A stretch of 25,541 nucleotides of DNA, from IMG/VR virus record IMGVR_UViG_3300035698_034045, positions 1 through 25,541 of that record; one strand, written 5' to 3'. The notes under the pieces were generated by a model. It had not been told where the DNA came from and searched no databases. It saw only the letters and a list, made by a program, of their open reading frames with translations. The position numbers were made by a program, and so were the translations under genes. Positions 4,019-22,540 of this stretch are shown here, piece by piece. Positions within the stretch are counted from its first letter, which is position 1; each line of letters opens with the position of its first letter. Source of the stretch: a virus.

Positions 4019-4510
4019 CTAGAAGATCTGCGGATTATAAACCGCAAGACGATTCATGGGATTTTGTGAGTTCGCTATGAACTGGTACTGGTCATTATTA
4101 AGTTCATCGCTATTAATAATTTTGGTGCAAACGAACCCTAGAGACTTCAAAAACAATTGTGCGGCAAGTAATGTCTCATTCAAAATTGTCATGATCGGAC
4201 GAGGATACTCAGCACGACTAATATGAGCCATCATCCGAGCCCCAACCTTCTGACGTCTAAATTTCGGATGCACCCAAAAATGCATCAAAAGAACCGGCTT
4301 ATTCTGCTGCCGATTATAAAGAACATAACCAATAGGATCACCATAAATATTGAACCCTATAATCCCACCACTCTGCCCAAGACTATAAAGATAATGTGGG
4401 ATACTCTGCTCAAGATCGATTTGAGTCTCATCGATACAAGATCGTAATATAGGTTCAAACTGGGTGCGGTGTTTCGAGTCAAGAGACTCAACTGTCATGA
4501 AAGTATCCAT
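4019..4510 (-). CDS. GNAT-family N-acetyltransferase
   Basis: The protein has 163 residues from the ATG at 4510, chosen because GGGGAG precedes it and because the longer frame upstream (to 4618) runs through terminator hairpins. The GNAT pattern is clear: strands GGIIGFNIYGD and PIGYVLYN, then the acetyl-CoA binding motif A, FWVHPKFRRQKVGARMM (core RRQKVGA), then an Asn/Glu-containing strand (ILNETLLAAQLFLKSLGF) and the usual closing strand. GNAT enzymes transfer acetyl from acetyl-CoA to an amine. It sits between sheath and tube genes, and the promoter-like site ahead of it suggests its own transcript with the tube genes. The substrate is unknown; a virion or host protein is possible. Confidence 0.83.
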   Translation of the reverse strand: MDTFMTVESLDSKHRTQFEPILRSCIDETQIDLEQSIPHYLYSLGQSGGIIGFNIYGDPIGYVLYNRQQNKPVLLMHFWVHPKFRRQKVGARMMAHISRAEYPRPIMTILNETLLAAQLFLKSLGFVCTKIINSDELNNDQYQFIANSQNPMNRLAVYNPQIF

Positions 4511-4527
4511 AGCATGTCTCCCCAAGT

Positions 4528-4553
4528 ATAATATGTTTGGAAAGAATACAAAA
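4528..4553 (-). promoter_or_regulatory. Promoter-like motif before the GNAT gene
   Basis: On the minus strand the sequence TTTTGTATTC (4553-4544) is followed after exactly 10 bases by TATTAT (4533-4528), 18 bases before the GNAT start codon. The same arrangement, with TATAAT, occurs at 18951-18926. The spacing does not fit a standard bacterial sigma-70 promoter with a 17-base spacer, so a phage-specific promoter is possible. It directly follows two terminator hairpins. Confidence 0.45.
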
Positions 4554-4585
4554 ATGGGGCGTTGACCACACCGCCAACACCCCAT
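4554..4585 (-). terminator. Rho-independent terminator (second of a pair)
   Basis: A stem ATGGGG/CCCCAT (4580-4585 with 4554-4559) continues, after one mismatch, with GTTG/CAAC around a 10-base loop. Read on the minus strand it is followed directly by TTTTTG, a T-tract. It lies downstream of the sheath gene and would end sheath transcripts. Confidence 0.75.
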
Positions 4586-4615
4586 GTTAAAGAAGGGGTG
4601 ACCCCCAAAATACAC

Positions 4616-4646
4616 CAATGGGGAGCCTTCTAGGGGCTCCCCATTG
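4616..4646 (-). terminator. Terminator hairpin after the sheath gene
   Basis: A perfect 12-base-pair stem (4616-4627 with 4635-4646) has a 7-base loop and lies 20 bases after the sheath stop codon. On the minus strand it is followed by GGTGTATTTTGGGG, so its T-tract is weak and offset; the second hairpin at 4554-4585 has the better T-tract. The two probably act together. Confidence 0.7.
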
Positions 4647-4665
4647 ACGACAATCGCTCTAACGA

Positions 4666-7521
4666 TTAACCACCATTCGTAACGCCAACAGCCGACAAGA
4701 CTTCTTCCGAAGTCAAGCTAACGCTCTGACGAGTAACACCAATATTGAGCACGACGATCTCAGCCGAGCGTTGCGGTACCAAAATCACCGAAACCCAAAG
4801 CTCACCACGATCAATTCGCTCAGGAGTATTGTTGTTCTCATCCACGATCACAACAAACTCAACCAAACCGCGACGAGACTGAATATCACTCAAGAACGGA
4901 TTGATCGAAGCCCGAACCTGCGACCACAAAACACGATCGTTGGGCTCAAAGACAAAGTTGCGGAGCAACTGAGCCAAGCCACGTCGTACGCGGTTCACGA
5001 GCAACCGGACGTCCATCCGACTCAAAGGAGACTCACCACGTTGCAACGTTCGGTTGCCCCAGACGGTCAGTCCTTCTTGAGTGAAATTCACAATTGGGTT
5101 AACGCTGTTGCCCGATCCGTAGAGCAAATCACGTTCACCTTGAGTTGGCGAGTATTCGACCGCGATTGGGCTCAAGAGCCGACCACGACGAAGACCGGCA
5201 GGAGCCGACCACGGTTCACCTTCACGAGCACTGCGGCTGAAGACAGCGGAAATGTGGCCGGATGGTGGAATCCAAACGTTCTGACCAGAGAACTGATCGA
5301 AGACCAGCAACCAACCAGTGTAAAGACCAGCATAGCTCGTGTTGATCGCTTGCTGCAGATCGCTCAAGAGCATACCATTGTGCCAATCGACCGTTTGTTG
5401 TGGGCGAAGCCCGAACGGAGGATCGACGAGGTAGACTGAGTCACCACGGCCCGAGACGATTTGAATCGCAGTACCAATCACCGCACCAGAACTGAATCCT
5501 GGAGTAGCGAGCACATCGACTTCCAACCCCTCTGGGTTCTCGAAGGCATACAAACCAGTCGCAAGCTGAGGACTACCAATGATAGCAGCGTCCAGCAAAT
5601 TCGAGAAGCTTGGGTCAGTTGGGATACCATTGGCACCACCAGTGTACTGACGAGAAGCAAACTGCGAAGGCTGACGAATTTCGTAAGTCGACAAGTTTGG
5701 ATCATTGTTCAAGAAGCCGGGACGCTCTTCCCAATGAACGTAGAGGTTTCCGCGAAGACCGCCACCGCTGGAACCTGGGTTAATCAGGTTAGCGACGTAG
5801 TTGCTGTCGTTCTTGTCGAATGTGAAGTCTTCGACTCGTTCAAGGATTTCTCCTTCACGACCAAGAACAATCAACTTGTAACGGCCAGCGATGTCACCCA
5901 CACCCTCGGTGAAGAGGGAGAGCTGAACTGTGACGTCATCTGCCCATGTTCCGGCACTTGGAGCGACGAACCATCCAACGATGTTTTGGAAGTAGTTCGT
6001 GTCCGAGACACAAGCCGCTGATAACGGGTTGTTTTCGCAGGAAAGCGGGTTGGCAGGGTTGTTCTGACCAGGAACTGGCAGCGACAATCGGCTGTCGAAG
6101 AAACCACGGTAGCTTCGGCGATAAGGATTGAGAATATCAACCTCATCAGCGAATCGTAGAACCTTAATATTACTGAAGTTGGCTTCAAGCTCAAGAGTAT
6201 CGTACTGGTGGTCTTCGGAAGCGATGATGACCAAGTGGGTTGTTCCACCGGGTACTGTCAATTCGATTGCTTCGTAGTAGACTTCACCACCGGTTGTTCC
6301 AGCTCCGTCGATTGTTCCGACGATCGAGGCAGTGGTAATGTTGTTACCAGTTGCGACCGAGACACCGATTTGTTGGGTGTCGTTTTCGCCGATCACGTTC
6401 AACAGAACTCGGTTGTTCTGCGAGCTGAAGGTGTGAGGACCTGGATCAAGGCCGAGCAAGAATGCACGTGGGATATCCCAAGCGAATTGTTGCGTGTCGA
6501 CTTCCAAAGCAAAAGCGTTGGTCGCTGTCAGTTGAAGTCTCTCGCCTTCAGTGACCGAGACGATTTCTGCTGTCTCAACACCTTCGAGCACCGTGTTGAC
6601 GAAGATGTAATCTTCTGAAACCAACAGGGCGTTTGCGGCGTTGACGAAAGCATTAACGCTGGTGTACGTTGCCGTTGGCATTTGGTACACGTTAGGAGTC
6701 GTTGCCCCTTCGACTGCTACAGCGAAGGATTGGTTATCGGGCTCGACATTCCATGTGAATGTGTCACCGACATCAAGTTCGCCTGAAGTCAGTTGAACTC
6801 GAACACTGAATCCAGCGTCTGGAATAGCGATGTAGTTCGAGACGTTGTTAGCACTTGGGTCGACGATTACGTCGTCCACGAGCACTTCACCGTCGCTGTT
6901 TCGGATGATCTGGAATTCGGAACCACCGATGCCTGCTCCTGAAGAGAGGTCTGGTTCGCTGTTGACGACGAGTGTGAAGGAGTCGTCGATATCGCCAGTG
7001 TAATTCCCAAGAATACCAAGAGTAGCAGCAGTCGCACCATTGGTGGAGCTGAGGCTAGCATCAGTATAGTTGATGTTGAAAATGCTGGACGGGTGGAATG
7101 AGACTGGTGGTGGGTTGTCGTTGGCACCGTTGCCAATACCACGCAGTGTCAAACGACCGACATCGATTCCGGAGAAGACTGGGACACGGCCCCAACCTTC
7201 GATTCGGGAACCGCTTGTGTCGATGCAGACTTCATTCAAAGAAGCTGGTTGGCCTTCTTCGCACTCAACACCGATTCGAAGCACGTAGGCTTGGTTTCCT
7301 TCTTCAAGGTAAGCCAGGACTGCGTATCCAAGATAGCTGTTGGGGAAGGGCTCTCCAAAGACATCAATGAACTGCTGAGCATTAGTGATTAATACTGGCG
7401 TGTTCACTGGGCCTTTTTGGGCGGTACCAATAAAGCCGGGACGAAGAGGACCAGCTGCGTTAGGCAGCTGAGCGATTTCGACCACTCTTGAGTAGACGCC
7501 GGGGCTCAAGTAAGTTGGCAT
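4666..7521 (-). CDS. Contractile tail sheath protein (T4 gp18-like), oversized
   Basis: The protein has 951 residues from the ATG at 7521 (MPTYLSPGVY). A TTG six codons upstream is possible but the GCGGAG site fits the ATG. The N-terminus shows the sheath pattern: LSPGVYSRVVE, then GFIGTAQKGPVNTPVLI, an FGEP turn and an AYLEEGNQAYVLRI segment. The C-terminal 200 residues are the conserved sheath core: LLYGSGNSVNPIV, GLTVWGNRTLQ, FVFEPNDRVLW, RGLVEFVV, NNTPERIDRGEL and a final beta strand. The middle is long, Thr/Val/Asn-rich and beta-rich, and probably forms extra surface domains. T4 gp18 has 659 residues, so nearly 300 have been added. The sheath contracts to drive the tube through the cell envelope. 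Tandem terminators follow the gene. Confidence 0.95.
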   Translation of the reverse strand: MPTYLSPGVYSRVVEIAQLPNAAGPLRPGFIGTAQKGPVNTPVLITNAQQFIDVFGEPFPNSYLGYAVLAYLEEGNQAYVLRIGVECEEGQPASLNEVCIDTSGSRIEGWGRVPVFSGIDVGRLTLRGIGNGANDNPPPVSFHPSSIFNINYTDASLSSTNGATAATLGILGNYTGDIDDSFTLVVNSEPDLSSGAGIGGSEFQIIRNSDGEVLVDDVIVDPSANNVSNYIAIPDAGFSVRVQLTSGELDVGDTFTWNVEPDNQSFAVAVEGATTPNVYQMPTATYTSVNAFVNAANALLVSEDYIFVNTVLEGVETAEIVSVTEGERLQLTATNAFALEVDTQQFAWDIPRAFLLGLDPGPHTFSSQNNRVLLNVIGENDTQQIGVSVATGNNITTASIVGTIDGAGTTGGEVYYEAIELTVPGGTTHLVIIASEDHQYDTLELEANFSNIKVLRFADEVDILNPYRRSYRGFFDSRLSLPVPGQNNPANPLSCENNPLSAACVSDTNYFQNIVGWFVAPSAGTWADDVTVQLSLFTEGVGDIAGRYKLIVLGREGEILERVEDFTFDKNDSNYVANLINPGSSGGGLRGNLYVHWEERPGFLNNDPNLSTYEIRQPSQFASRQYTGGANGIPTDPSFSNLLDAAIIGSPQLATGLYAFENPEGLEVDVLATPGFSSGAVIGTAIQIVSGRGDSVYLVDPPFGLRPQQTVDWHNGMLLSDLQQAINTSYAGLYTGWLLVFDQFSGQNVWIPPSGHISAVFSRSAREGEPWSAPAGLRRGRLLSPIAVEYSPTQGERDLLYGSGNSVNPIVNFTQEGLTVWGNRTLQRGESPLSRMDVRLLVNRVRRGLAQLLRNFVFEPNDRVLWSQVRASINPFLSDIQSRRGLVEFVVIVDENNNTPERIDRGELWVSVILVPQRSAEIVVLNIGVTRQSVSLTSEEVLSAVGVTNGG

Positions 7522-10698: not shown

Positions 10699-11488
10699 CG
10701 ACAATCCCAAGAGGCTCACCCTGAAGCATAGCCTGCTCCAGGATCTTCTCTTTCAATTCCTCGCCTTCTTTAACCAGAGCCTCACCATCATAAGTGAGAG
10801 TTCCACCATCCGGTGTGGGTACGCCCTGGATCTTACGACGAGCCATACCCAAAGCAATCCGAGCCTCCGCCTCAACGTAATCATACGCCAATTTCCGTGC
10901 CTGGGGGCTCCGGAAGTGGTTGATACAAGGCAAGTAGATCACTACCACCGGGAAAGCTGCTTTCGGCGTAGGAATGAGCCGAATCTTCTGGAACTCAGCA
11001 TCCAATGCGTCATCAATGACGGGTCCTTCCACTTCGCCCATCACTTCCCAACGACCCTCGACGCCAAGAATCTTAGCTGAGTGCCTTCGATAATGCTGGA
11101 CAAGGTGGAAGTCCAAGACCATCGTGTTCGGGCCGAAGAAGTTGCCAGAGTTCAGTAGATACTGGCCGACTCCGAAGATGTCGTTGAAGTTACCAACGTA
11201 GGGGTCCCAACTGACTTCTTCAATCCACCAAGCATCATCAGGCATTGGATATGTGGCTTGAAGTGGTATTGTATAAAAAGTGGCTACTTTCTGTTCCCTA
11301 GGGAAATACATGGCAATAAAATCGCCAGCAACCCGAATAATATCTTCTAGTTGCTCTTCGGTTAATTCCACATTAATATTAGGATAACCAAGCTTATGAA
11401 GAACATACCTCTTCAGAGGTTCCGTATTCATCTTAAGTATCGAAGGTCCAATGCCGCCCGGACCTGAAATTGAACCTGCACAACTCAC
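10691..11488 (-). CDS. Neck protein, T4 gp13-like
   Basis: The protein has 265 residues from the GTG at 11488; an in-frame ATG at residue 20 (MNTEPLKRYV) is an alternative start. The N-terminal segment LKRYVLHKLGYPNINVELTEEQLEDII is the typical opening of gp13-type neck proteins, followed by a FYTIPLQATYPMPDD block and a C-terminal helical part (KLAYDYVEAEARIALGMAR). gp13 binds the portal side and, with gp14, seals the filled head and accepts the tail. It is the first of the neck genes and follows HE1 by 15 bases. A 10-base repeat spans its start codon and the HE1 stop. Confidence 0.75.
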   Translation of the reverse strand: MSCAGSISGPGGIGPSILKMNTEPLKRYVLHKLGYPNINVELTEEQLEDIIRVAGDFIAMYFPREQKVATFYTIPLQATYPMPDDAWWIEEVSWDPYVGNFNDIFGVGQYLLNSGNFFGPNTMVLDFHLVQHYRRHSAKILGVEGRWEVMGEVEGPVIDDALDAEFQKIRLIPTPKAAFPVVVIYLPCINHFRSPQARKLAYDYVEAEARIALGMARRKIQGVPTPDGGTLTYDGEALVKEGEELKEKILEQAMLQGEPLGIVAI

Positions 11489-11505
11489 AATTAATACTCA
11501 CAATT
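11483..11505 (-). repeat. Tandem 10-base repeat at HE1 stop/neck start
   Basis: ACTCACAATT on the plus strand occurs at 11483-11492 and 11496-11505, offset by 13 bases. The second copy overlaps the HE1 stop codon and the first overlaps the GTG start of the gp13-like gene. It contains the left copy of the 10-base TTAATACTCA repeat that brackets HE1. Confidence 0.8.
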
Positions 11506-13159
11506 AGATTATTTTATTCCAAAGTAATTTTAAATGACCGGCATCATATGTTCTAACATACCCATTATTTAGCATGTTTTCGAATTCCGAACAGCCTGGA
11601 TCAAAGCAATCACCTAATAATCTATTCAACTTGTGTTTTTGGCACCTCTGCCTAGAATAAACATTACCAGCCTTGTAATAAAAATAATTGGGTGTAGTAT
11701 AGCTTTCAAAAACAAATCCATTCTTTAGATATAAATTACCCTCGCTAATCCTACAATCAGCGAAAGTCAGAATTTCGCTTGGATCAAAATCAGAAATGAA
11801 TTTTGAAAACAGCTTAGAAAAACCTCCCTGAACAGAATATCCCGGCAAAGAAGCATATCTAATCACCTCCCATTCATGCTTGGGGTGTTTTGAAAAGCTT
11901 AAAAGAGAAACTAGATCACCATCATAAAAAAGTCCATAATTCAATCTAGCATTTCTATGAGATTGTAAATGCGAAAGGTTCATGAACCCAGACACTTCAG
12001 AATTAGTACACTTTTTGAAAGAACACTTCCTAGCACCTATTTTTCTCAATTTCCCAAGTTTATAAGAAATCATCGATTCAATTAAAGAAAAATTGCTCAA
12101 AATCTCGTGGTCCCAAAATTGATACAACGAGATGTTTTTCTCTATAGACCTGACATACTTCATAAAATGTCTGTCTTTAGCGTTACTATTTTCATCAATC
12201 GACTTAGCCCCATGCCAATAACACCCATTAATTTCAATACCAAAATTTTGGCCAGGAACCCAAACATCAATTTCAAGACCGTCTAAAACAGATCTATTGT
12301 TTATCTCATACTCAACACCCAAAGAATCAAGATATTGAGTAACCAGCCTATGCGGAACCGAAATATTACATATCGGACATCCCTGACCTTTGTAATGATT
12401 TGTCGGTGCTTGCCAAAACGACCCATGCTTTTTACAACCAATTTCTATCTTAACCAATTGCGTGACATATACCGATTTTGAATAATCGTATATGTCACCA
12501 TGAATAGCATTGGCTTTGTTTATAAAATCTTCTAAGTTCAAACGATTATGAGACTCTAATAATCCACAATTAGGACAGCCAGATCCACATAAGTGAGAAT
12601 TCGGAGTCTGATAAAAAGACCCATGAGATCCGCAGATTATTTCTATTTTACTAGTTGCTGAAATATAGTCAGATTTGGAATAATCATACTTATTATCATG
12701 AACATCTCTAGCCTTTCTTACAAATTTTTGCAAACTTGAAGTATTCTTTTTCGACCTAGAAATTTTAGCACATTTTTGACACCCAGAGCCAGCGAGATGC
12801 CTTGTTGGTGTTTGTGAGAATTCCCCATGGATACGACAAACAATTTTAACATGCTTATGTGATGTTTCATATTCAACATCATCATAAACATACTTGTCGC
12901 CATGAACTAACACAGACTTAGCGACAAACTCTTTTTTGCCAAGTTGATGGATAGCCCTGTATTCGTCGTGAGTACAACTCGGGCAATTACCACCCCTAAG
13001 ATGAACACCAGCAACTTGACTAAATTGCTGGTGTTTAGAACAAACAATCACAACAGACTTCTTACTATTAATATATTCTACTTTAGAATAATCATATTTA
13101 TCGCCATGAATAGATATAGCCTGTTCGATAAATTGTTCTGTTGTTAAACGTGCAGCCAT
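11504..13159 (-). CDS. Homing endonuclease-like protein HE1: zinc repeats, Vsr-like nuclease, Mom-like C-domain
   Basis: The protein has 551 residues. Residues 8-264 carry four repeats of about 55-60 residues, each with an HGDKYDYSKV-like start, an I.C..HG.F.Q core and a closing CPxC; these resemble DUF723-type zinc-binding modules. Residues 270-355 match the Vsr-like (EDxHD-type) nuclease of phage homing enzymes: LEIDVWVPGQ (Glu296, Asp298), GIEINGCYWHG (Glu309, His316) and LYQFWDHE. Residues about 375-510 form a third domain with SHLQSHRNARLNYGLF, VIRYASLPGYSVQGG, ILTFADCRISEGNLY and PNYFYY, a GNAT-like pattern close to phage Mu Mom. It is a close paralogue of HE2. It lies after the stop of a small phage gene and is bracketed by TTAATACTCA. 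AT-rich compared with virion genes, which supports recent arrival. Confidence 0.78.
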   Translation of the reverse strand: MAARLTTEQFIEQAISIHGDKYDYSKVEYINSKKSVVIVCSKHQQFSQVAGVHLRGGNCPSCTHDEYRAIHQLGKKEFVAKSVLVHGDKYVYDDVEYETSHKHVKIVCRIHGEFSQTPTRHLAGSGCQKCAKISRSKKNTSSLQKFVRKARDVHDNKYDYSKSDYISATSKIEIICGSHGSFYQTPNSHLCGSGCPNCGLLESHNRLNLEDFINKANAIHGDIYDYSKSVYVTQLVKIEIGCKKHGSFWQAPTNHYKGQGCPICNISVPHRLVTQYLDSLGVEYEINNRSVLDGLEIDVWVPGQNFGIEINGCYWHGAKSIDENSNAKDRHFMKYVRSIEKNISLYQFWDHEILSNFSLIESMISYKLGKLRKIGARKCSFKKCTNSEVSGFMNLSHLQSHRNARLNYGLFYDGDLVSLLSFSKHPKHEWEVIRYASLPGYSVQGGFSKLFSKFISDFDPSEILTFADCRISEGNLYLKNGFVFESYTTPNYFYYKAGNVYSRQRCQKHKLNRLLGDCFDPGCSEFENMLNNGYVRTYDAGHLKLLWNKII

Positions 13160-13163
13160 CCCT

Positions 13164-13174
13164 GTTTAATACTC
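13164..13174 (-). repeat. HE leader repeat (copy before HE1)
   Basis: GAGTATTAAAC on the minus strand precedes the HE1 start codon by five bases. The identical 11 bases stand before HE2 (15356-15366). Here the repeat overlaps the TGA stop of the upstream gene. TTAATACTCA at 13166-13175 matches 11491-11500 beyond the other end of HE1. Confidence 0.85.
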
Positions 13175-13559
13175 ATGAAGTTTCTTTAACGTTATTATGG
13201 AATTCATCGATAATTCCGTCTAATGTTTTACTGGTTCGATATAATCTATGGGTATTAGACACATACCAAGTCTTTCCGTTGACAACAGATTTCCATACAC
13301 CGACATTCCCATCGCCCCAGACAGCCTTAGCTTTTTTGGCTTTTGATTTTTCTTCATCATCCAACGTCCGACGATGCTTCTTCAATTCTTTAAGATCTGG
13401 TGCAGATTCAGAAAGCATAACTTGAGTCCCAAGTTTCTTGAACAGATCTTGGGCACTGTCATACAAATTGTCGCCTTTTTCGATCTCGCCGCGATTCCAA
13501 GCATCCAAAATCTGCATTTCTTCAGACGTCAAAGATTCGTTTATAAGAGAGAGTTTCAT
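13173..13559 (-). CDS. Small phage protein, unknown function
   Basis: This 128-residue protein has an acidic, helical N-terminus (LTSEEMQILDAWNRGEIEKG), a highly basic middle (LKELKKHRRTLDDEEKSKAKKAK), and a conserved-looking C-terminus AVWGDGNVGVWKSVVNGKTWYVSNTHRLY with several Trp and Tyr. The last block looks like a small domain I associate with uncharacterised phage proteins, but I cannot name it. It overlaps the previous gene by one base (TAATG), and HE1 begins 13 bases after its stop. Confidence 0.72.
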   Translation of the reverse strand: MKLSLINESLTSEEMQILDAWNRGEIEKGDNLYDSAQDLFKKLGTQVMLSESAPDLKELKKHRRTLDDEEKSKAKKAKAVWGDGNVGVWKSVVNGKTWYVSNTHRLYRTSKTLDGIIDEFHNNVKETS

Positions 13560-13882
13560 TATTCGACTTCTAGGAGTGGCAATGATTGTCCAGCTAACTC
13601 ATGAGTACAATCAGATAAATATTTTACCATACCGTCGTTAACGAACGAATGACATCTTGGTCCTTCGGGACTCTGATCAGTGAGTATACTAGGCTTTAAT
13701 GTCGGGGATTCAATATCTCCATTCCACGACCAACAATTAGTGTTTTTTCGGCTTCCCTTGAGAATCACAGGTATGATTCTCATAGACATTGGACCAGGAA
13801 AATTCAATTCGACATGGGAACATTCGGATATGGCACATTGGATCAAAGCCCCATCGATAATCTTTATTGGTTTAGCTTTCAT
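13559..13882 (-). CDS. DUF6527-like small protein
   Basis: This 107-residue protein contains CWSWNGDIESPTLKPSI and then RCHSFVNDGMVKYLSDCTHEL. The order W-x-WNGD, PTLxPSI, CHSFVxDG and a late His matches what I know of the DUF6527 group of small, probably metal-binding proteins found in phages and bacteria; function is unknown. Two further Cys lie near the N-terminus (CAISEC). The start overlaps the HE2 stop by four bases (ATGA), and the GGAG ribosome site is within the final codons of HE2, so HE2 supplies the translation signal for this gene. Confidence 0.6.
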   Translation of the reverse strand: MKAKPIKIIDGALIQCAISECSHVELNFPGPMSMRIIPVILKGSRKNTNCWSWNGDIESPTLKPSILTDQSPEGPRCHSFVNDGMVKYLSDCTHELAGQSLPLLEVE

Positions 13883-15351
13883 TCATCATATCTCCAAATA
13901 AGCTTATGGTGACCAGCATCATAAACTTTAGTATAACCATTGAGAAACATATTCTCTGATTCAGATTTTTCAGGATCAAACCCATCTCCTAGAAATCTTG
14001 ACAATTTATGTTTTTGACATTTTTGTCTAGAAAAGACACGTCTTCCTTTAACATAGAAATAATTTGGTTTAGTGTGACTGTATAATTTTAAACCATTTCT
14101 TGAATAAACACCGCCGTTGCTATGCCTAGCATCAGCAAAGGTCATAACCTGACTTGGACTGTACTCTCTAATAAAAGCCTTGAATAATCTAGAAAAACCA
14201 CCAACCACAGTGTGTTTCAAAGAACAAGCATACCTTATTATTTCCCATTCGTGTTTTGCGTGTCTAGAAAGAGTCAAAGATGCCACAATCTTATTATCAA
14301 CTTTCAGACAATAAGATTGACTAGCGTTTCGATGCCCCTGTAGGTGTGAAGAGTCCATAAAAGGCTTAACCGAACTATTATCAGATTTAGATATTTCACA
14401 CTTTCTGGCGAATATCCTATTGGATATCCCCAATCGGTGGGACACCATGCTCTTCACCACATCGAATTTATCATCTATCTCATGATCCCAAAATTGATAA
14501 AGATCTATCCCTTTCGATTTGGCTAAATTATATTTATTTAAATGTTTGGAAGGGCAATTGTCAATTTTGTTGTTGGTCCCATGCCAATAGCACCCATTAA
14601 TTTCTATTCCGAATTTGTGGTCAGGAATCCAAATATCAATCTCAAAACCGTCTAAAGCAGATCTGTCGTTATCGACAACAGAAACATTGCTTGGAATTGT
14701 GTCGAGGATCTTTTGATGCGGCTTTGAGATGACTCCTGGGCATTTTGAGCAACCTCTTCCTTGAAGATGACCGTTCGGTGACTGTAAAAATTCACCATGT
14801 TTCCGGCAGATTATTGATACATATTCATCCCATTTGCGATATTCTACTTTAGAATAATCATATTTGTCGCCATGAATCTCAACAGCTTTTTTAACAAATT
14901 CTAATGTTGACAAAGAATTAAATGAGGAAACTTTATCAACACCACATTTAGGACATCCCTGTTTCCTATTGATATGCTTCACTGGAGATTGTAAAAATTC
15001 TCCATGATCAGGGCAAATTATAACAATTCTTGATTTATAAGAAGAATACTCTACTTTAGAATAATCGTATCTGTCGCCGTGAATTTCTTCTGCTTGGAGC
15101 ACAAATTTTTCTGTCGATGATTTATTAGAATCCGCTAATCTAATAATATTATCAACATTAGCACATTTGAGACAACCACTACAACAATTAATGTGGTTGT
15201 TCGGAGCTTGCTCAAATTCTCCATGTACGGGGCAAATTATAACCACTTTCAAAAAAGAGCTGATATATTCTACTTTAGAATAATCATATTTGTCGCCATG
15301 AATCTTTTTAGATCTTTCTATAAATTGTTCTGTTGTTAAACGTGTAGCCAT
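13879..15351 (-). CDS. Homing endonuclease-like protein HE2: zinc repeats, Vsr-like nuclease, Mom-like C-domain
   Basis: The 490-residue paralogue of HE1. It opens MATRLTTEQFIE (HE1: MAARLTTEQFIE) and ends with the same YDAGH.KLxW. Only three HGDKYDYSKV zinc repeats are present (about residues 8-63, 81-137 and 150-205) instead of four, so one has been lost here or gained in HE1. The nuclease block FEIDIWIPDH (Glu237, Asp239), GIEINGCYWHG (Glu250, His257) and LYQFWDHE is intact. The C-terminal domain again has SHLQGHRNAS, GGFSRLF, VMTFADARHSNGGVY and PNYFYV. It lies two codons plus the leader after the stop of the metallophosphatase gene, with the same 11-base leader as HE1. All key residues are present, so it may be active. 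Confidence 0.78.
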   Translation of the reverse strand: MATRLTTEQFIERSKKIHGDKYDYSKVEYISSFLKVVIICPVHGEFEQAPNNHINCCSGCLKCANVDNIIRLADSNKSSTEKFVLQAEEIHGDRYDYSKVEYSSYKSRIVIICPDHGEFLQSPVKHINRKQGCPKCGVDKVSSFNSLSTLEFVKKAVEIHGDKYDYSKVEYRKWDEYVSIICRKHGEFLQSPNGHLQGRGCSKCPGVISKPHQKILDTIPSNVSVVDNDRSALDGFEIDIWIPDHKFGIEINGCYWHGTNNKIDNCPSKHLNKYNLAKSKGIDLYQFWDHEIDDKFDVVKSMVSHRLGISNRIFARKCEISKSDNSSVKPFMDSSHLQGHRNASQSYCLKVDNKIVASLTLSRHAKHEWEIIRYACSLKHTVVGGFSRLFKAFIREYSPSQVMTFADARHSNGGVYSRNGLKLYSHTKPNYFYVKGRRVFSRQKCQKHKLSRFLGDGFDPEKSESENMFLNGYTKVYDAGHHKLIWRYDE

Positions 15352-15355
15352 TCTC

Positions 15356-15366
15356 GTTTAATACTC
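15356..15366 (-). repeat. HE leader repeat (copy before HE2)
   Basis: GAGTATTAAAC on the minus strand precedes the HE2 start and overlaps the last base of the TAG stop of the metallophosphatase gene. It is identical to the copy before HE1; similarity to HE1 stops right at its outer edge. Confidence 0.85.
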
Positions 15367-16724
15367 TAAACACTATGGACCATGAAATTAGATAATCCCT
15401 TATCCTTAGACCACAAGTAAGCCTCGGCTGCTCGGTGCGGTTTCACCCAGCCGTGCCTATAATGATATGAGTCCGTGGCTGTTAGACTTGGCAAAATCGT
15501 GACGCCGACACCATTGAAAGTATCACCAGCAATAAACCGAGTCTGTTTCTTTTTATGAAAATGCCCGACATGCCATTGGTGGAATTCTGCTTGAGCCCAT
15601 AGTTGCTTTTCTTCTTTGGCCATGATGAGCGGAAGATCGGCAGCTTTTTCATCACAAGAATGAGTGAAACCAAGAAGAGTGTTGCCGTAGAGTTCGTATT
15701 TACGTTGGCCTGGAGTCATGTCGAAGGTAATGTCTTCGATCCCGGCACCAATGCAGTATTGCTCAATCGTCTTCGTGAGGTACCAGGAAGTGCTTCTGTC
15801 GTGGTTTCCTGGGCTCCAAAGCACGTGGACCGGTGCGACGTCCCTACAACGCAGCAAGGCCCACTTGATGGCTTCTACGCCCACGGTGAAGATTTTGGAG
15901 AATCGATCGTCTGTCGATTCGACCAGCGTACCATTGCTGGTTTCGCCTTTCCAATTATCGACGTTGAAGAAGTCTTGGCCGATTGGGAAGACGATCCGTT
16001 CGACACCGAAGACTGAAGCACGGTCAAGGAGATCGTCGACCGCACCGAGGTAGATGTTCTCAGCGATTTTTAGGTTGTAATCCTCGCCAGTCTCTTCTTG
16101 CCAAGCCAGCTTCCCAAAGTGAGCGTCGAACAGGCTTATTTCGAGCATATGCGGCTTTGACATCGTCGCACGCCGCTTGATCTTTGGTGCCTTTGGTGGT
16201 CCGACCCATTTCTCCATCATTCTTTCCACGGCATCCTGCACGTACTTCGGAGCCCGGCGTTCGAGCTTGAATTTGACTTGGTAGAGTTGTTCCTTCCATA
16301 AGTCCTCTGGAAGCCATCGTTTTGTTCCTTCTTCTTGTCCGTTTCGTTTCTTACCAGCTACTTGCCATTGGTTAAAACGTGCTTCGGTTACTTTCCATTT
16401 CCGCATGTCGTAGCCAGCGATTTTGGCTATTTCTTCTGCGGTTAATTTGTCTCGCATCATTGCGACGAAGTTGAGTTCGTTTTCACCCTTGTGGGTGTAG
16501 GAGATGTGCTCGGTTTCAGTCTTCTTGACTTTGGTCGGGCTTTCGTCTGGTTCGCCGTCGACTGCTTGAAGGTCGAGTGCTGTGCCGTTTTTGAGCGAGC
16601 TATAGCGGTGTTGCAGGGTTGACCGGGCTACGCCCAGTTCCTCAGCTGCTCTTGAGATACTGCCGTCATGTGAGGCAATGGTGTTATATACCAGATCTTT
16701 ATCGAGCTTAGACTTTTTAGGCAT
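15366..16724 (-). CDS. HTH-calcineurin-type metallophosphatase
   Basis: The protein has 452 residues. Residues about 10-45 form a Fis-like helix-turn-helix (SISRAAEELGVARSTLQHRY). A linker with TAEEIAKIAGY follows. From about 190 a metallophosphoesterase domain shows the metal ligands in order: DAHFG (Asp200, His202), GQDFFNVDN (Asp251), GNHD (307-310), a lone His in GFTHS, and GHFHKKK (387-393). Such enzymes hydrolyse phosphate esters or act as nucleases with two metal ions. Phages often carry HTH-phosphatase fusions in late gene clusters, with unclear roles; DNA end processing or regulation are options. The ribosome site AGAG lies within the 3' arm of a long hairpin whose 5' arm holds the stop of the upstream gene (16727-16792). 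HE2 follows directly. Confidence 0.83.
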   Translation of the reverse strand: MPKKSKLDKDLVYNTIASHDGSISRAAEELGVARSTLQHRYSSLKNGTALDLQAVDGEPDESPTKVKKTETEHISYTHKGENELNFVAMMRDKLTAEEIAKIAGYDMRKWKVTEARFNQWQVAGKKRNGQEEGTKRWLPEDLWKEQLYQVKFKLERRAPKYVQDAVERMMEKWVGPPKAPKIKRRATMSKPHMLEISLFDAHFGKLAWQEETGEDYNLKIAENIYLGAVDDLLDRASVFGVERIVFPIGQDFFNVDNWKGETSNGTLVESTDDRFSKIFTVGVEAIKWALLRCRDVAPVHVLWSPGNHDRSTSWYLTKTIEQYCIGAGIEDITFDMTPGQRKYELYGNTLLGFTHSCDEKAADLPLIMAKEEKQLWAQAEFHQWHVGHFHKKKQTRFIAGDTFNGVGVTILPSLTATDSYHYRHGWVKPHRAAEAYLWSKDKGLSNFMVHSV

Positions 16725-17872: not shown

Positions 17873-18280
17873 TTACTCTTTGAATGAAGGAAGAACCGGT
17901 TCACCATCTTCAAGAGCAAGAGGCTTAAGTTGACTTGATTCGACGATCACTTGGCCATCTTCATCAAGAGTGATGCTGTTGAATTTCTTGCCGACCATTG
18001 CTGCAACGGTTGCTTTTTGCAATGAAACACTTTGACCAACAGCGACCCATTCAGTTTCATCATAAATGAAATCCGGATAGACCCATAAGCATTGGTTAAA
18101 AAGACCTGCTCCATCACATGTTAGTCTTTTCCCTACTTCTTCATCGAATTGAAGACCGATGCTTTTGCCAGGAACGTCTGTTAGGGCGATGATCGTACCA
18201 AGAAGGGGAGCTGGTAAAGAGCTGGAAACGCACCAGTACCTATCGCCGATCGTAAATGTTGTGTTGCTTGTGCCGCTCAT
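17873..18280 (-). CDS. Probable virion-associated protein, unknown
   Basis: This 135-residue acidic protein starts after an AGAGG site. Its first half reads like a small beta-barrel (FTIGDRYWCVSSSLPAPLLG, then IIALTDVPGKSIGLQF) and contains GDRYW and LQFDEE; the end is acidic and loose (EDGEPVLPSFKE). Three Cys are spread through the first half. The family is not recognised; location fits a head or neck accessory protein. Confidence 0.7.
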   Translation of the reverse strand: MSGTSNTTFTIGDRYWCVSSSLPAPLLGTIIALTDVPGKSIGLQFDEEVGKRLTCDGAGLFNQCLWVYPDFIYDETEWVAVGQSVSLQKATVAAMVGKKFNSITLDEDGQVIVESSQLKPLALEDGEPVLPSFKE

Positions 18281-18329
18281 GAGAACCTCTATTTGAGATG
18301 ATTTTGTGAATTGTTAATAGTCTTAGCGA

Positions 18330-18899
18330 TTAAGACTCATCAAAAGCCCAAGTGAAGGTTTCTTGGTTGGTCGGACCGGGCAAAGCAGTTTGGATAACTT
18401 GGAATTGATAAACAATAAAGTTACCCAAAGCACCCGTAGCCGCACCAATTGAGCCGTTACCAATTGTCAGCGGGGAACCCGATGTGAAAGTAAACGGAGA
18501 CGCGGTTGCTGAAATTGTTGTATGGTTCGCAGCCAATTCGTCACCAGTAGATGTCGCACCAGTCGCTTGATCGTAACTGGCTCTAACAAGACCGTTAGCT
18601 GGTGCACTTCCGTACACACAGGAAACACCAGTACCAAAGCCGTCTGCACCGTCAGTGTACCAACGGACGTTGTTGATCGCAGTAGACGGAGCGACTGTTA
18701 CTTCCAAACCGGTGGTGCACCAAAAACTGTAGTTGGTACCAGCACCAGGGGGAATTTGAATAGGGTCGGCTACACCAACTGCACTAGCAGAAGCTAAGAT
18801 CTGTGGTAGGTCGTTAGCGGTGACGACGGTGTTAGCCGTGATGGGTGTTGCCGTTGGACCGGCACCGGTGTATCGGTTAATTACTACTGTTGCGGCCAT
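18330..18899 (-). CDS. Probable capsid-decoration-type protein
   Basis: The protein has 189 residues from the ATG at 18899, with GGAG seven bases upstream. It is very rich in Ala, Thr, Gly and Ser, with almost no Lys, and reads as an all-beta protein: VVINRYTGAGPTATPITANT, then EVTVAPSTAINNVRWYTDG, FTFTSGSPLTIGNG and a last strand QETFTWAFDES. Such composition is typical of head decoration proteins, fibre pieces or Ig-like virion domains, but no specific family is recognised. It is the first gene after the second terminator/promoter unit, suggesting high and separate expression, as expected for an abundant virion protein. Confidence 0.72.
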   Translation of the reverse strand: MAATVVINRYTGAGPTATPITANTVVTANDLPQILASASAVGVADPIQIPPGAGTNYSFWCTTGLEVTVAPSTAINNVRWYTDGADGFGTGVSCVYGSAPANGLVRASYDQATGATSTGDELAANHTTISATASPFTFTSGSPLTIGNGSIGAATGALGNFIVYQFQVIQTALPGPTNQETFTWAFDES

Positions 18900-19084: not shown

Positions 19085-19489
19085 TTAGTTGTTGATATCT
19101 GGGGTGAGGTCGCGACCGTCTTGGTGAAGGTCGCCACTGAGACCAGTTTCGGTGTTCTGGATGAATTGGTCTTGACCAATCTTGAACGAGAAGCCAATGT
19201 TCGGCAGGTTGCCTTGAGCTTGTGCCAAGCTGACTTGATCTCGGAGACCAATGACAATTGGATAGCCCCGTACAGCTGTCGTGCGAGCTTCGCCCATGTA
19301 AGAGCTGAAGTCCGAAACGCTTGCATCACGAGTCTTGACTTCGACCAAGTCTTCACGACCTGGAATGCTCATGACCTGTGGGCGAAGACGCTTGGTCAGT
19401 GCAGCAATCGTTTCTTGACGATCAGCACGTCTATAGCTACGTAGTGTGCGGAAGACTTTGATCTGAGTGTTTGCGGGTTGAGCCGACAT
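19085..19489 (-). CDS. Probable virion-associated protein, unknown
   Basis: This 134-residue protein is preceded by AAGGA nine bases before the ATG. The N-terminus is basic and helical (FRTLRSYRRADRQETIAALTKRL), the middle has SSYMGEARTTAVRGYPIVIGL, and the end is polar (GLSGDLHQDGRDLTPDINN). No family is recognised. It is the first gene of the minus-strand block after the divergent HE3 gene, and has its own terminator directly after it, so it may be strongly expressed. Confidence 0.7.
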   Translation of the reverse strand: MSAQPANTQIKVFRTLRSYRRADRQETIAALTKRLRPQVMSIPGREDLVEVKTRDASVSDFSSYMGEARTTAVRGYPIVIGLRDQVSLAQAQGNLPNIGFSFKIGQDQFIQNTETGLSGDLHQDGRDLTPDINN

Positions 19490-19576: not shown

Positions 19577-21538
19577 ATGAAATCAAAAAGAGATCATGTC
19601 AACTGGGGAAAAACACTAGAAAAATTCGGACAATCTAGAATAAAACCTTGTCCGACTGATAAAGTAATAGTTGATTGTAATTATTGTGATTCAGATTTTG
19701 AAATTGGTTATAGAAGTATCCGATCAAGGAAAAGTGGTGAATCATATGATGGGATTTGTAAAAGTTGTCAACAGAAACGGACTTGGTTTGAAAATGAAGA
19801 ATTTAGAAAAATGGTATCAAAGAAAAATTCGGAGATTCAAAAAAAGGTCTGGACCAGACCTGGTTATAGAGACAATCAATCCAAAAAGCAGAAAAATCTG
19901 ACAACAGAAAGGTGGCTGGACTCCGATTATAGAGAAAAGGTGATCGAAGGCGTAAAGAACGCTCATGCGACCATCAATGGGTACACAGAGTCTTGTGTGC
20001 CCAAAGTCACTCCGAAGTCAAGAGAGAGACAAAGGGAAATGACTCTCAGGTTGTGGCAAAATGTTGAATACAGAGAGAAAACTCTAGCCGGTATCCATAA
20101 AAACTGGGCCAGAAGTGAATTCAGAGAGAAAATTGCTGAAATCTATAAAGACCCTGATTATATTTCGAAACAAAAAGAGTCACACAGTTCTGGTGAATAC
20201 CTCCAAAAGATTTCAGAAGAGAAAAAGAAATGGTGGGCAGACAATAGGGAAGAACTGTTAGAGATTTACAGATCTGATAGTCACCGAGAGAAATTGAGAG
20301 AAATCTGGAAGAGGCCAGGTTTCAGAGAAAACATGATAGAGATTTTAAATTTTGAAAAGCATATTTCCAACTTATCGGAAATATCGAAGAAATGGTGGGC
20401 AGACAATAGGGAAGAACTATTAGAAATTTATCAGTCAGATGAACATCGTCAGAAATTAAGAGATATATGGAAGAGACCCGGTTTTAGAGAAATGATGTCT
20501 GAAAAAATGAGAGACGTTTGGAAAAATGAAGATCTAATAAAAGAAGTAACCGAAAGATCTAGGAACAATTGGAAAGACCCAGTCTATGCTGCAAAGTGTA
20601 TCAACCACCATTCTTCTAAATTAGAAGAACATTTGGCTGAATTATTAGATGGTTTTAATATTAAATATGACAGACAGTTCCATCTTGGCCATTGGTCTTT
20701 TGATTTTTTAGTAGACACTAACCCGATTAAGACGTTGGTTGAAGTGCAGGGTGAGTATTGGCATTTCAAGAGGTTCGGTGACCAGGAGTCACCTAGAGAT
20801 AAAGCAAAGGCGACTTTTGTTGAGAAATATCATTCCAATAACTATAAATTGGTTACAATTTGGGAGAATGAGTTTTTATCTCCTGAGAGACTGTCTAATA
20901 GATTGGATGAAATACTTGGCGGTAAGATAGAGAAGATCGATTTTAATTTCAAAGACTTATCGATTAAAAAAATAGATGGACCGACTTCTTCGAAATTCTT
21001 TTCTAAATATCATTATTCCGCTTCAGGTGGAAGATCTGGGATTAACATTGGATGTTTTTTAGACGACAAGCTAATATCAGTTTGTCGTTATTGCTCTCCG
21101 ACCAGAAAACAATCAGCGGACAGGTTGAATATAAAACAAAAAGAGTTGAAAGAGTTAACCAAGTTTGCAATTCATCCTTCGTATCAAAAGAAGAATCTTG
21201 CTACTTGGTTTTTGTCTAGAACCTATTGTTTTTTGCCTAGTGTGACCAAGATGTTGTTGTCATTTGCTGATGAGACTTTTGGTCACACCGGCACGATTTA
21301 CAAAGCTGCTAATTGGTGTTCGGACGGAACCTTGAAACCAGATTATGTATATGTTGATCAAAATGGTTTCATTATGCACAAAAGAACTCTTTGGGGCCAC
21401 TCTAAAAAGATGGGTATGAAAGAGTCAGAATATGCCAATCTTTGGGGATATGTTAAAATGTGGGGTAAAGAAAAACATCGTTTTATAAAAGAGCGAAGGG
21501 GTTGGTCTCGCACCAACAGTTCCAATCTGGTAGATTAG
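19577..21538 (+). CDS. Homing endonuclease-like protein HE3: zinc ribbon, basic repeats, Vsr-like nuclease, Mom-like C-domain
   Basis: The protein has 653 residues on the plus strand. Residues 34-64 hold a CNYC...CKSC zinc ribbon. Residues about 70-340 are charged, helical repeats built around W-(8-12)-R-(E)K/FRE units, similar to NUMOD-type DNA-binding repeats; two copies (about 217-257 and 271-311) are nearly identical. Residues 345-445 form a Vsr-like nuclease: SFDFLVD (Asp376), LVEVQGEYWH (Glu389, His396), then LVTIWENEFL. Residues about 465-635 resemble phage Mu Mom: FFSKYHYSAS, LTKFAIHPSYQKKN, LLSFADETFGHTGTIYKAANW and PDYVYV. TATAAT directly precedes the ATG and there is no good ribosome site. 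It is AT-rich and inserted opposite to its neighbours. Confidence 0.8.
   Translation: MKSKRDHVNWGKTLEKFGQSRIKPCPTDKVIVDCNYCDSDFEIGYRSIRSRKSGESYDGICKSCQQKRTWFENEEFRKMVSKKNSEIQKKVWTRPGYRDNQSKKQKNLTTERWLDSDYREKVIEGVKNAHATINGYTESCVPKVTPKSRERQREMTLRLWQNVEYREKTLAGIHKNWARSEFREKIAEIYKDPDYISKQKESHSSGEYLQKISEEKKKWWADNREELLEIYRSDSHREKLREIWKRPGFRENMIEILNFEKHISNLSEISKKWWADNREELLEIYQSDEHRQKLRDIWKRPGFREMMSEKMRDVWKNEDLIKEVTERSRNNWKDPVYAAKCINHHSSKLEEHLAELLDGFNIKYDRQFHLGHWSFDFLVDTNPIKTLVEVQGEYWHFKRFGDQESPRDKAKATFVEKYHSNNYKLVTIWENEFLSPERLSNRLDEILGGKIEKIDFNFKDLSIKKIDGPTSSKFFSKYHYSASGGRSGINIGCFLDDKLISVCRYCSPTRKQSADRLNIKQKELKELTKFAIHPSYQKKNLATWFLSRTYCFLPSVTKMLLSFADETFGHTGTIYKAANWCSDGTLKPDYVYVDQNGFIMHKRTLWGHSKKMGMKESEYANLWGYVKMWGKEKHRFIKERRGWSRTNSSNLVD
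20225..20418 (+). repeat. Internal direct repeat in HE3
   Basis: An exact 32-base sequence starting AAGAAATGGTGGGCAG occurs at 20225-20256 and 20387-20418, 162 bases (54 codons) apart. The similarity continues for some 90 bases with few changes, encoding the WWADNREELLEIY...WKRPGFRE unit twice. The near-identity points to a fairly recent in-frame duplication. Confidence 0.9.
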
Positions 21539-21565
21539 TGTGTTGCTTTACACCACCCTCGCTTA

Positions 21566-22540
21566 TCACACAAAAGTGTTACCAATCAATCTCATATCCG
21601 CGTCCACCATATCATGAACTAACTGTTCGAATGATATCTTTGGTTTCCACCCCAATTCCTCATGGGCAAGTGAAGCATCACCAAGAACAATCTCCACTTC
21701 CGCAGGCCGGAAGAACTTTGGATCAATCTTGACATATTTTTGATAATCCATACCCATACGACCAAAAGCAAGCTCAACAAACTCCCGAACCGTATGAGTC
21801 TCCCCCGAAGCGAACACAAAATCCTTCGCCTCATGATGCTGAAGCATCATCCACATCGCCTCAGCCATATCCGCCGCATGCGACCAATCCCGCTTAGCAT
21901 CAAGATTCCCAAGCCTAAGCTCCGTCGCCTGATTATAATTAATCCTAGCCGCCGTATGCGTAATCTTCCGAGTCACAAACTCATGCCCACGACGCGGAGA
22001 CTCATGATTAAAAATGATCCCACAACACGCGAACATGTCATAGGATTCCCTATAATTGATCGTTGACCAATGAGCGAACAACTTCGCCACACCATAAGGA
22101 GAACGAGGATAAAAAGGAGTCGACTCCCTCTGAGGCGTCTCAACCACCTGACCATAAAGCTCACTGCTCGAAGCCTGATAAAACTTGATCCGATGATTCA
22201 CAAGCCGAATCGCCTCAAGCACCCGAAGACAACCAAGCCCCGTCACCTCAGCCGTCTGAATCGGACAATCCCAACTCACCTTCACAAAAGACTGGGCCGC
22301 CAGATTATAAACCTCATCAGGCTCAACAGCCTCAAGAACCCGAATAATCGACGAAAGATCAAGAAGATCAGCAGGATGCAAAGTCACCAAATCAAGAATA
22401 TCATCGATCCGACTAGTATTAGGATTACTAGTCCGACGAACAATACCATGAACCTCGTAGCCCTTAGAAAGCAAGAACTCCGCAAGATAACTACCAGTCT
22501 GACCGGTAATCCCAGTGATTATAGCTTTAGGCTTAGTCAT
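21566..22540 (-). CDS. gmd: GDP-mannose 4,6-dehydratase
   Basis: The protein has 324 residues. It is a short-chain dehydrogenase-type sugar-nucleotide enzyme: the cofactor motif TGITGQTG (Gly10, Gly13, Gly16), an NLAAQSFV segment, catalytic SSSELYG (about 124-130) and YGVAK (Tyr149, Lys153), then NHESPRRG and a GNLDAKRDW substrate block. This set is specific for GDP-mannose 4,6-dehydratase, which turns GDP-mannose into GDP-4-keto-6-deoxymannose, the precursor of GDP-fucose, rhamnose and perosamine. It is a little shorter than E. coli Gmd (373). The start overlaps the glycosyltransferase stop by four bases (ATGA). No fucose synthase or other next-step gene is seen here, so the product may be finished by host enzymes. 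Confidence 0.93.

Follow-up and report, generated by a model that had tools for sequence, protein, structure and literature searches.

A Hef-like homing endonuclease gene in a viral contig encodes a predicted Mom-type acyltransferase domain

The window analysed here is a 25,541-nucleotide viral sequence (IMG/VR record IMGVR_UViG_3300035698_034045, positions 1 to 25,541), and our analysis centers on HE3, one of three homing endonuclease genes in it. HE3 is intergenic and has two neighbours on the opposite, minus strand: an ORF (19085-19489) on one side and a GDP-mannose-dehydratase-like gene (21566-22540) on the other. The features discussed below are as follows.

11504-13159, minus strand: HE1, a Hef-type homing endonuclease with a C-terminal nuclease and GNAT pair as in HE3
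13879-15351, minus strand: HE2, a Hef-type homing endonuclease with the same kind of C-terminal pair
19577-21538, plus strand: HE3 ORF, 653 aa, a Hef-like homing endonuclease with a Mom-type C-terminal domain
19587-21563, no strand assigned: a 1977-bp stretch missing from the relatives L168, L169 and L170, which have 4 bp (GGAG) there instead
19676-19768, plus strand: zinc ribbon of HE3, residues 34-64, with CxxC at 34-37 and 61-64, read from the sequence
19784-20488, plus strand: Trp/Arg-rich basic repeats of HE3, residues 70-304, with seven W..[YF]R motifs
20612-20911, plus strand: Vsr/EDxHD-like PD-(D/E)XK nuclease of HE3, residues 346-445
20957-21487, plus strand: Mom-type GNAT domain of HE3, residues 461-637, PF25680
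21491-21562, minus strand: tRNA-Gly(acc)-like cloverleaf found by ARAGORN, inside the insert and abutting its right boundary

An earlier note on this DNA had described HE3 as a protein without HGDKYDYS-type repeats, in which a zinc ribbon and Trp/Arg-rich basic repeats precede a Vsr-like nuclease and a Mom-like domain, and this description is confirmed. The ORF, the zinc ribbon, the repeats, the nuclease and the Mom domain are found where they were claimed, and the segment from residue 65 to 345 has a pI of 9.4. Unlike HE1 and HE2, which both match Pfam DUF723/DUF4379, HE3 has no match to these families. The HGDKYDYS-type N-terminal repeats are a common trait of Hef-type homing endonucleases and not a defining one.

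Searches with single sequences give a weak signal for the nuclease, and a Pfam search with HE3 alone did not report a Vsr-like nuclease. It emerges from the family: a profile of 27 HE3-like proteins, made of HE3 and 26 further sequences from viral contigs, matches 3r3p with E=5.1e-12. This entry, which carries the database name ‘mobile intron protein’, we take to be I-Bth0305I, the EDxHD prototype homing endonuclease. The likeness consists of the nuclease fold and the conserved residues; among 48 non-redundant HE3-like proteins, D376, G392, H396, D408 and K411 are invariant and E389 is kept in 47. The match spans the nuclease only and the 3r3p chain has no Mom-like domain, so the presence of a GNAT domain is not a requirement for homing nucleases of this kind. 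We looked for wild-type I-Bth0305I in phage records and did not find it there.

The C-terminal domain matches PF25680 over residues 461-637 (E=2.1e-23; score 83.5 bits, curated cut-off 27.1) and phrog_1384 (E=2.6e-23), and the 27-member profile matches Mu Mom (PDB 8bv8) with E=4.5e-12. For the predicted-structure comparison with Mu Mom that the note had proposed, we used an AlphaFold2 model of residues 336-653 made with 27 sequences (mean pLDDT 87.9). The best solved match to this model is 8bv8 (Foldseek 7e-11), and in VIA-align the two superimpose with a Z of 18.2 and an rmsd of 3.4 over 173 aligned residues, the runner-up having a Z of 14.6. The Foldseek and VIA results for this model are taken up by its GNAT half, and the nuclease fold is based on the profile matches. 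The PF25680 match, the predicted fold and the family-profile match to 8bv8 rule out a chance likeness to Mom. HE3 shares with Mu Mom, which is named a methylcarbamoylase, the GNAT domain, the Pfam family, the nearest fold and the H, E, N, D and Y positions; Mu Mom stands alone, whereas in HE3 the domain is joined to a nuclease and to DNA-binding parts. From sequence and model, we conclude that the C-terminal domain of HE3 is a true Mom-type GNAT acyltransferase with predicted activity. Elsewhere in the window, a small separate ORF at 4019-4618 on the minus strand, which adjoins a tail-sheath-like gene, looks by eye like a GNAT acetyltransferase.

The Mom-domain positions of HE3 are H479, Y480, E526, K529, N540, T543, D565 and Y575, where K529 and T543 correspond to R111 and the catalytic S124 of Mu Mom; the title of 8bv8 names an ‘inactive mutant S124A’. 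H479, Y480 and D565 are invariant in all 48 HE3-like proteins. The S124 position is Ser in 42 of them and Thr in six, HE3 included, while the R111 position is Arg in 47 and Lys in HE3 only. The loss of active-site residues with which the note had reckoned is therefore not seen in the family, although HE3 itself departs from Mu Mom at these two positions, in both cases conservatively. Such conservation would be expected under selection for catalysis. The acyltransferase of HE3 in particular may be weak or altered, given K529 and T543, with K529 as the reason to suspect a weakened enzyme. The closest pair of HE3-like genes, L008 and L009, has too few changes for a dN/dS estimate.

The 26 further sequences share 31-45% identity with HE3 where they align, and in nearly all of them the nuclease is followed by Mom, one ending early at the end of its contig. 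Their N-termini vary among zinc ribbons, HTH domains and repeats. L001, the sole match to HE3 when searched alone, covers only the W-repeats and was left out. The HE3-like profile aligns end to end, over 278 columns, with a profile of the C-terminal half of Hef-type proteins that includes HE1 and HE2 (hhalign, E=3e-38), and a Mom profile matches the Hef C-terminal profile with 96.3% probability (E=1.5e-9). Thus, as the note had suggested, HE3, HE1 and HE2 and the wider family combine one C-terminal pair with N-terminal modules that are unrelated to each other, and judged from these alignments the nuclease and the Mom-like domain are one inherited module. The note had also asked how often the two domains occur together, and the pair turns out not to be rare: in a tblastn search with the pair of HE1, 406 phage records match and 382 of them cover at least 80% of it at one place, which makes nuclease and GNAT domain, at the sequence level, nearly inseparable in Hef-type proteins. 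Mom is also found alone, for example in Mu and in Listeria phages; the nuclease is thus strongly linked to Mom, but Mom is not strongly linked to the nuclease.

The closest known Hef systems are Hef of phage U5, Hef73/74 of Campylobacter phage NCTC12673 and those of phages N2 and PA5oct; they are free-standing, are present in multiple copies in many phages, and have a C-terminal pair homologous to that of HE3. In Escherichia phage N2, Hef is located between the genes for the ribonucleotide reductase subunits, and hef of U5 is reported to cleave nrdB (PMC2988022). The GNAT domain of HE3 is much closer to Mom than that of Hef. HE3 has the Mom-specific residues Y480, N540, H570 and A577. The Hef branch has lost several such residues, those corresponding to Y59, N121, A161 and N163 of Mu Mom, and Mom is no outstanding match to the domain predicted for this branch (Z 13.3, rank 43). 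Twenty Hef-type sequences retain a core of H, R, S, D, G and Y. In the domain tree, stand-alone Mom forms one clade (support 100/99) and Hef another (100/100), with the HE3-like sequences, not resolved as a single clade themselves, in between.

That HE3 is an insertion, as the note had implied, is borne out by L168, L169 and L170, which match both flanks (99.7% on the right, a mosaic of 95-97% on the left) and lack 19587-21563. Over its final 100 bases, the identity of the left flank to these relatives falls to ~80%. The HE3 ORF has its first 10 bases, ATGAAATCAA, within the shared left flank; either HE3 captured a pre-existing ATG, or these bases are what is left in the relatives of a copy since lost. 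Two more distant relatives (L171 and L172, 72-80% identity) lack HE3 and also the whole HE1-HE2 block. The contig that holds L168 has another HE3-like gene elsewhere, at 55751-56629, and nine large contigs have 3 to 13 matches each to the HE3-like profile, which is the multi-copy habit of homing genes. Taking identity and mobility jointly, we are highly confident that HE3 is a mobile homing endonuclease gene. We also noticed that HE1, two small ORFs and HE2 lie as one block at 11488-15372, with HE2 present in L170 at 99.9% identity, and that 17900-18600 has a mosaic identity of 76-95% to L168 and L170 between stretches of ~100%, which suggests a recombination tract. HE3-like genes also occur on contigs binned as Lokiarchaeota MAGs (L173-L176), which are probably viral contigs; the start of L174 looks by eye like a fragment of a T4-type major capsid gene.

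The last ~16 codons of HE3 run antisense through the tRNA-Gly-like element. ARAGORN found no such element in 5.1 Mb of shuffled sequence, Rfam gave no tRNA match for 21491-21562, and a 26-base stretch of the element had no exact match in viral contigs; the element is probably degenerate. We considered a tRNA as the target site of the insertion and rejected it because the element lies within the insert and the empty relatives have none. Nor does a wider comparison support tRNA genes as general targets: of 31 HE3-like loci, L015 is the single one in which a tRNA or tmRNA gene adjoins the ORF. There, a tmRNA gene (4431-4769) starts 3 bases past the end of the HE3-like ORF (4427).

Fusions with the architecture of HE3 have been described in jumbo phages, where Mom domains joined to REase-fold nucleases were read as restriction components (PMC7824862). 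That paper counts five momylating enzymes in PA5oct and makes no mention of homing endonucleases. The HE3-like profile has exactly five matches in PA5oct, which lie in frames 509-614 aa long; we infer that these are the same five genes. Three of the five places were examined, and all three carry the annotation Hef-like homing endonuclease and have head, sheath or other structural genes next to them. A full-text literature search, whose scope took in few subscription papers, returned no paper linking Hef and Mom.

Reading HE3 in the manner of that paper, as a single-chain restriction-modification weapon in which Mom protects the phage genome while the nuclease is directed at the DNA of the host or of competing phages, would account for the published architecture and for the cut-plus-modify logic. 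We consider this quite unlikely, because HE3 behaves like a homing gene: it is intergenic, on the opposite strand, multi-copy and divergent in its N-terminus, and its absence from near-identical genomes speaks against a stable gene, as do the Hef-like annotations and the structural-gene neighbours of at least three of the five PA5oct genes against a restriction role. The GNAT domain could also acylate a protein, such as a host or competing nuclease or a recombination protein, instead of DNA. The fold of the Hef-branch domain, which is equally close to protein N-acetyltransferases and to Mom, would allow this, but the domain of HE3 is specifically nearest to Mom and carries the Mom-specific residues, and we regard a protein substrate as very unlikely.

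Alternatively, the Mom-like domain might no longer be an enzyme and might instead bind DNA or flip bases as an additional module, helping the nuclease to read a target adenine. This idea fits the Lys and Thr that HE3 has at two otherwise nearly invariant positions of the active site, and the loss of some Mom-specific residues in the Hef branch. However, the S124 position is Ser or Thr throughout the HE3-like proteins, which also keep H, D, Y and, with one exception, Arg, and the Hef-type sequences retain H, R, S, D and Y as a core, although catalytic residues are not obviously needed for a pure binding role. On balance, a purely binding module seems unlikely to us.

The best overall explanation, which we consider reasonably probable, is that HE3 is a free-standing, mobile homing endonuclease related to the Hef class, with possible self-protection by a DNA acyltransferase. 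The zinc ribbon and the W..[YF]R repeats would bind the target DNA, and the Vsr/EDxHD-like domain, judging from its invariant catalytic residues and its homology to U5 Hef, would cut it. Recombination would then copy HE3 into empty genomes; the presence and absence of the gene in near-identical genomes is observed, and the transfer is presumed from it. The Mom-type domain, presumably using CoA, would mark adenines at the target or close to it and thereby spare the carrier DNA a second cut. Self-protection is the likeliest role that we can propose for the Mom-type domain, and we propose it tentatively. Immunity by marking the homing site has not been described for homing endonucleases in the literature searched.

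HE3 joins two groups that are unconnected in that literature, the Hef homing endonucleases and the fusions of Mom with a nuclease that had been interpreted as parts of restriction systems. The nuclease and GNAT pair is present in hundreds of phage records, and it is conceivable, though somewhat short of an even chance in our estimate, that the Hef-type and HE3-like proteins together form a large class of single-chain cut-and-mark enzymes in which a Mom-descended acyltransferase would make carriers immune at the homing site. The connection makes a long-standing question testable: how free-standing homing endonucleases spare their own genome, and whether chemical marking is used.
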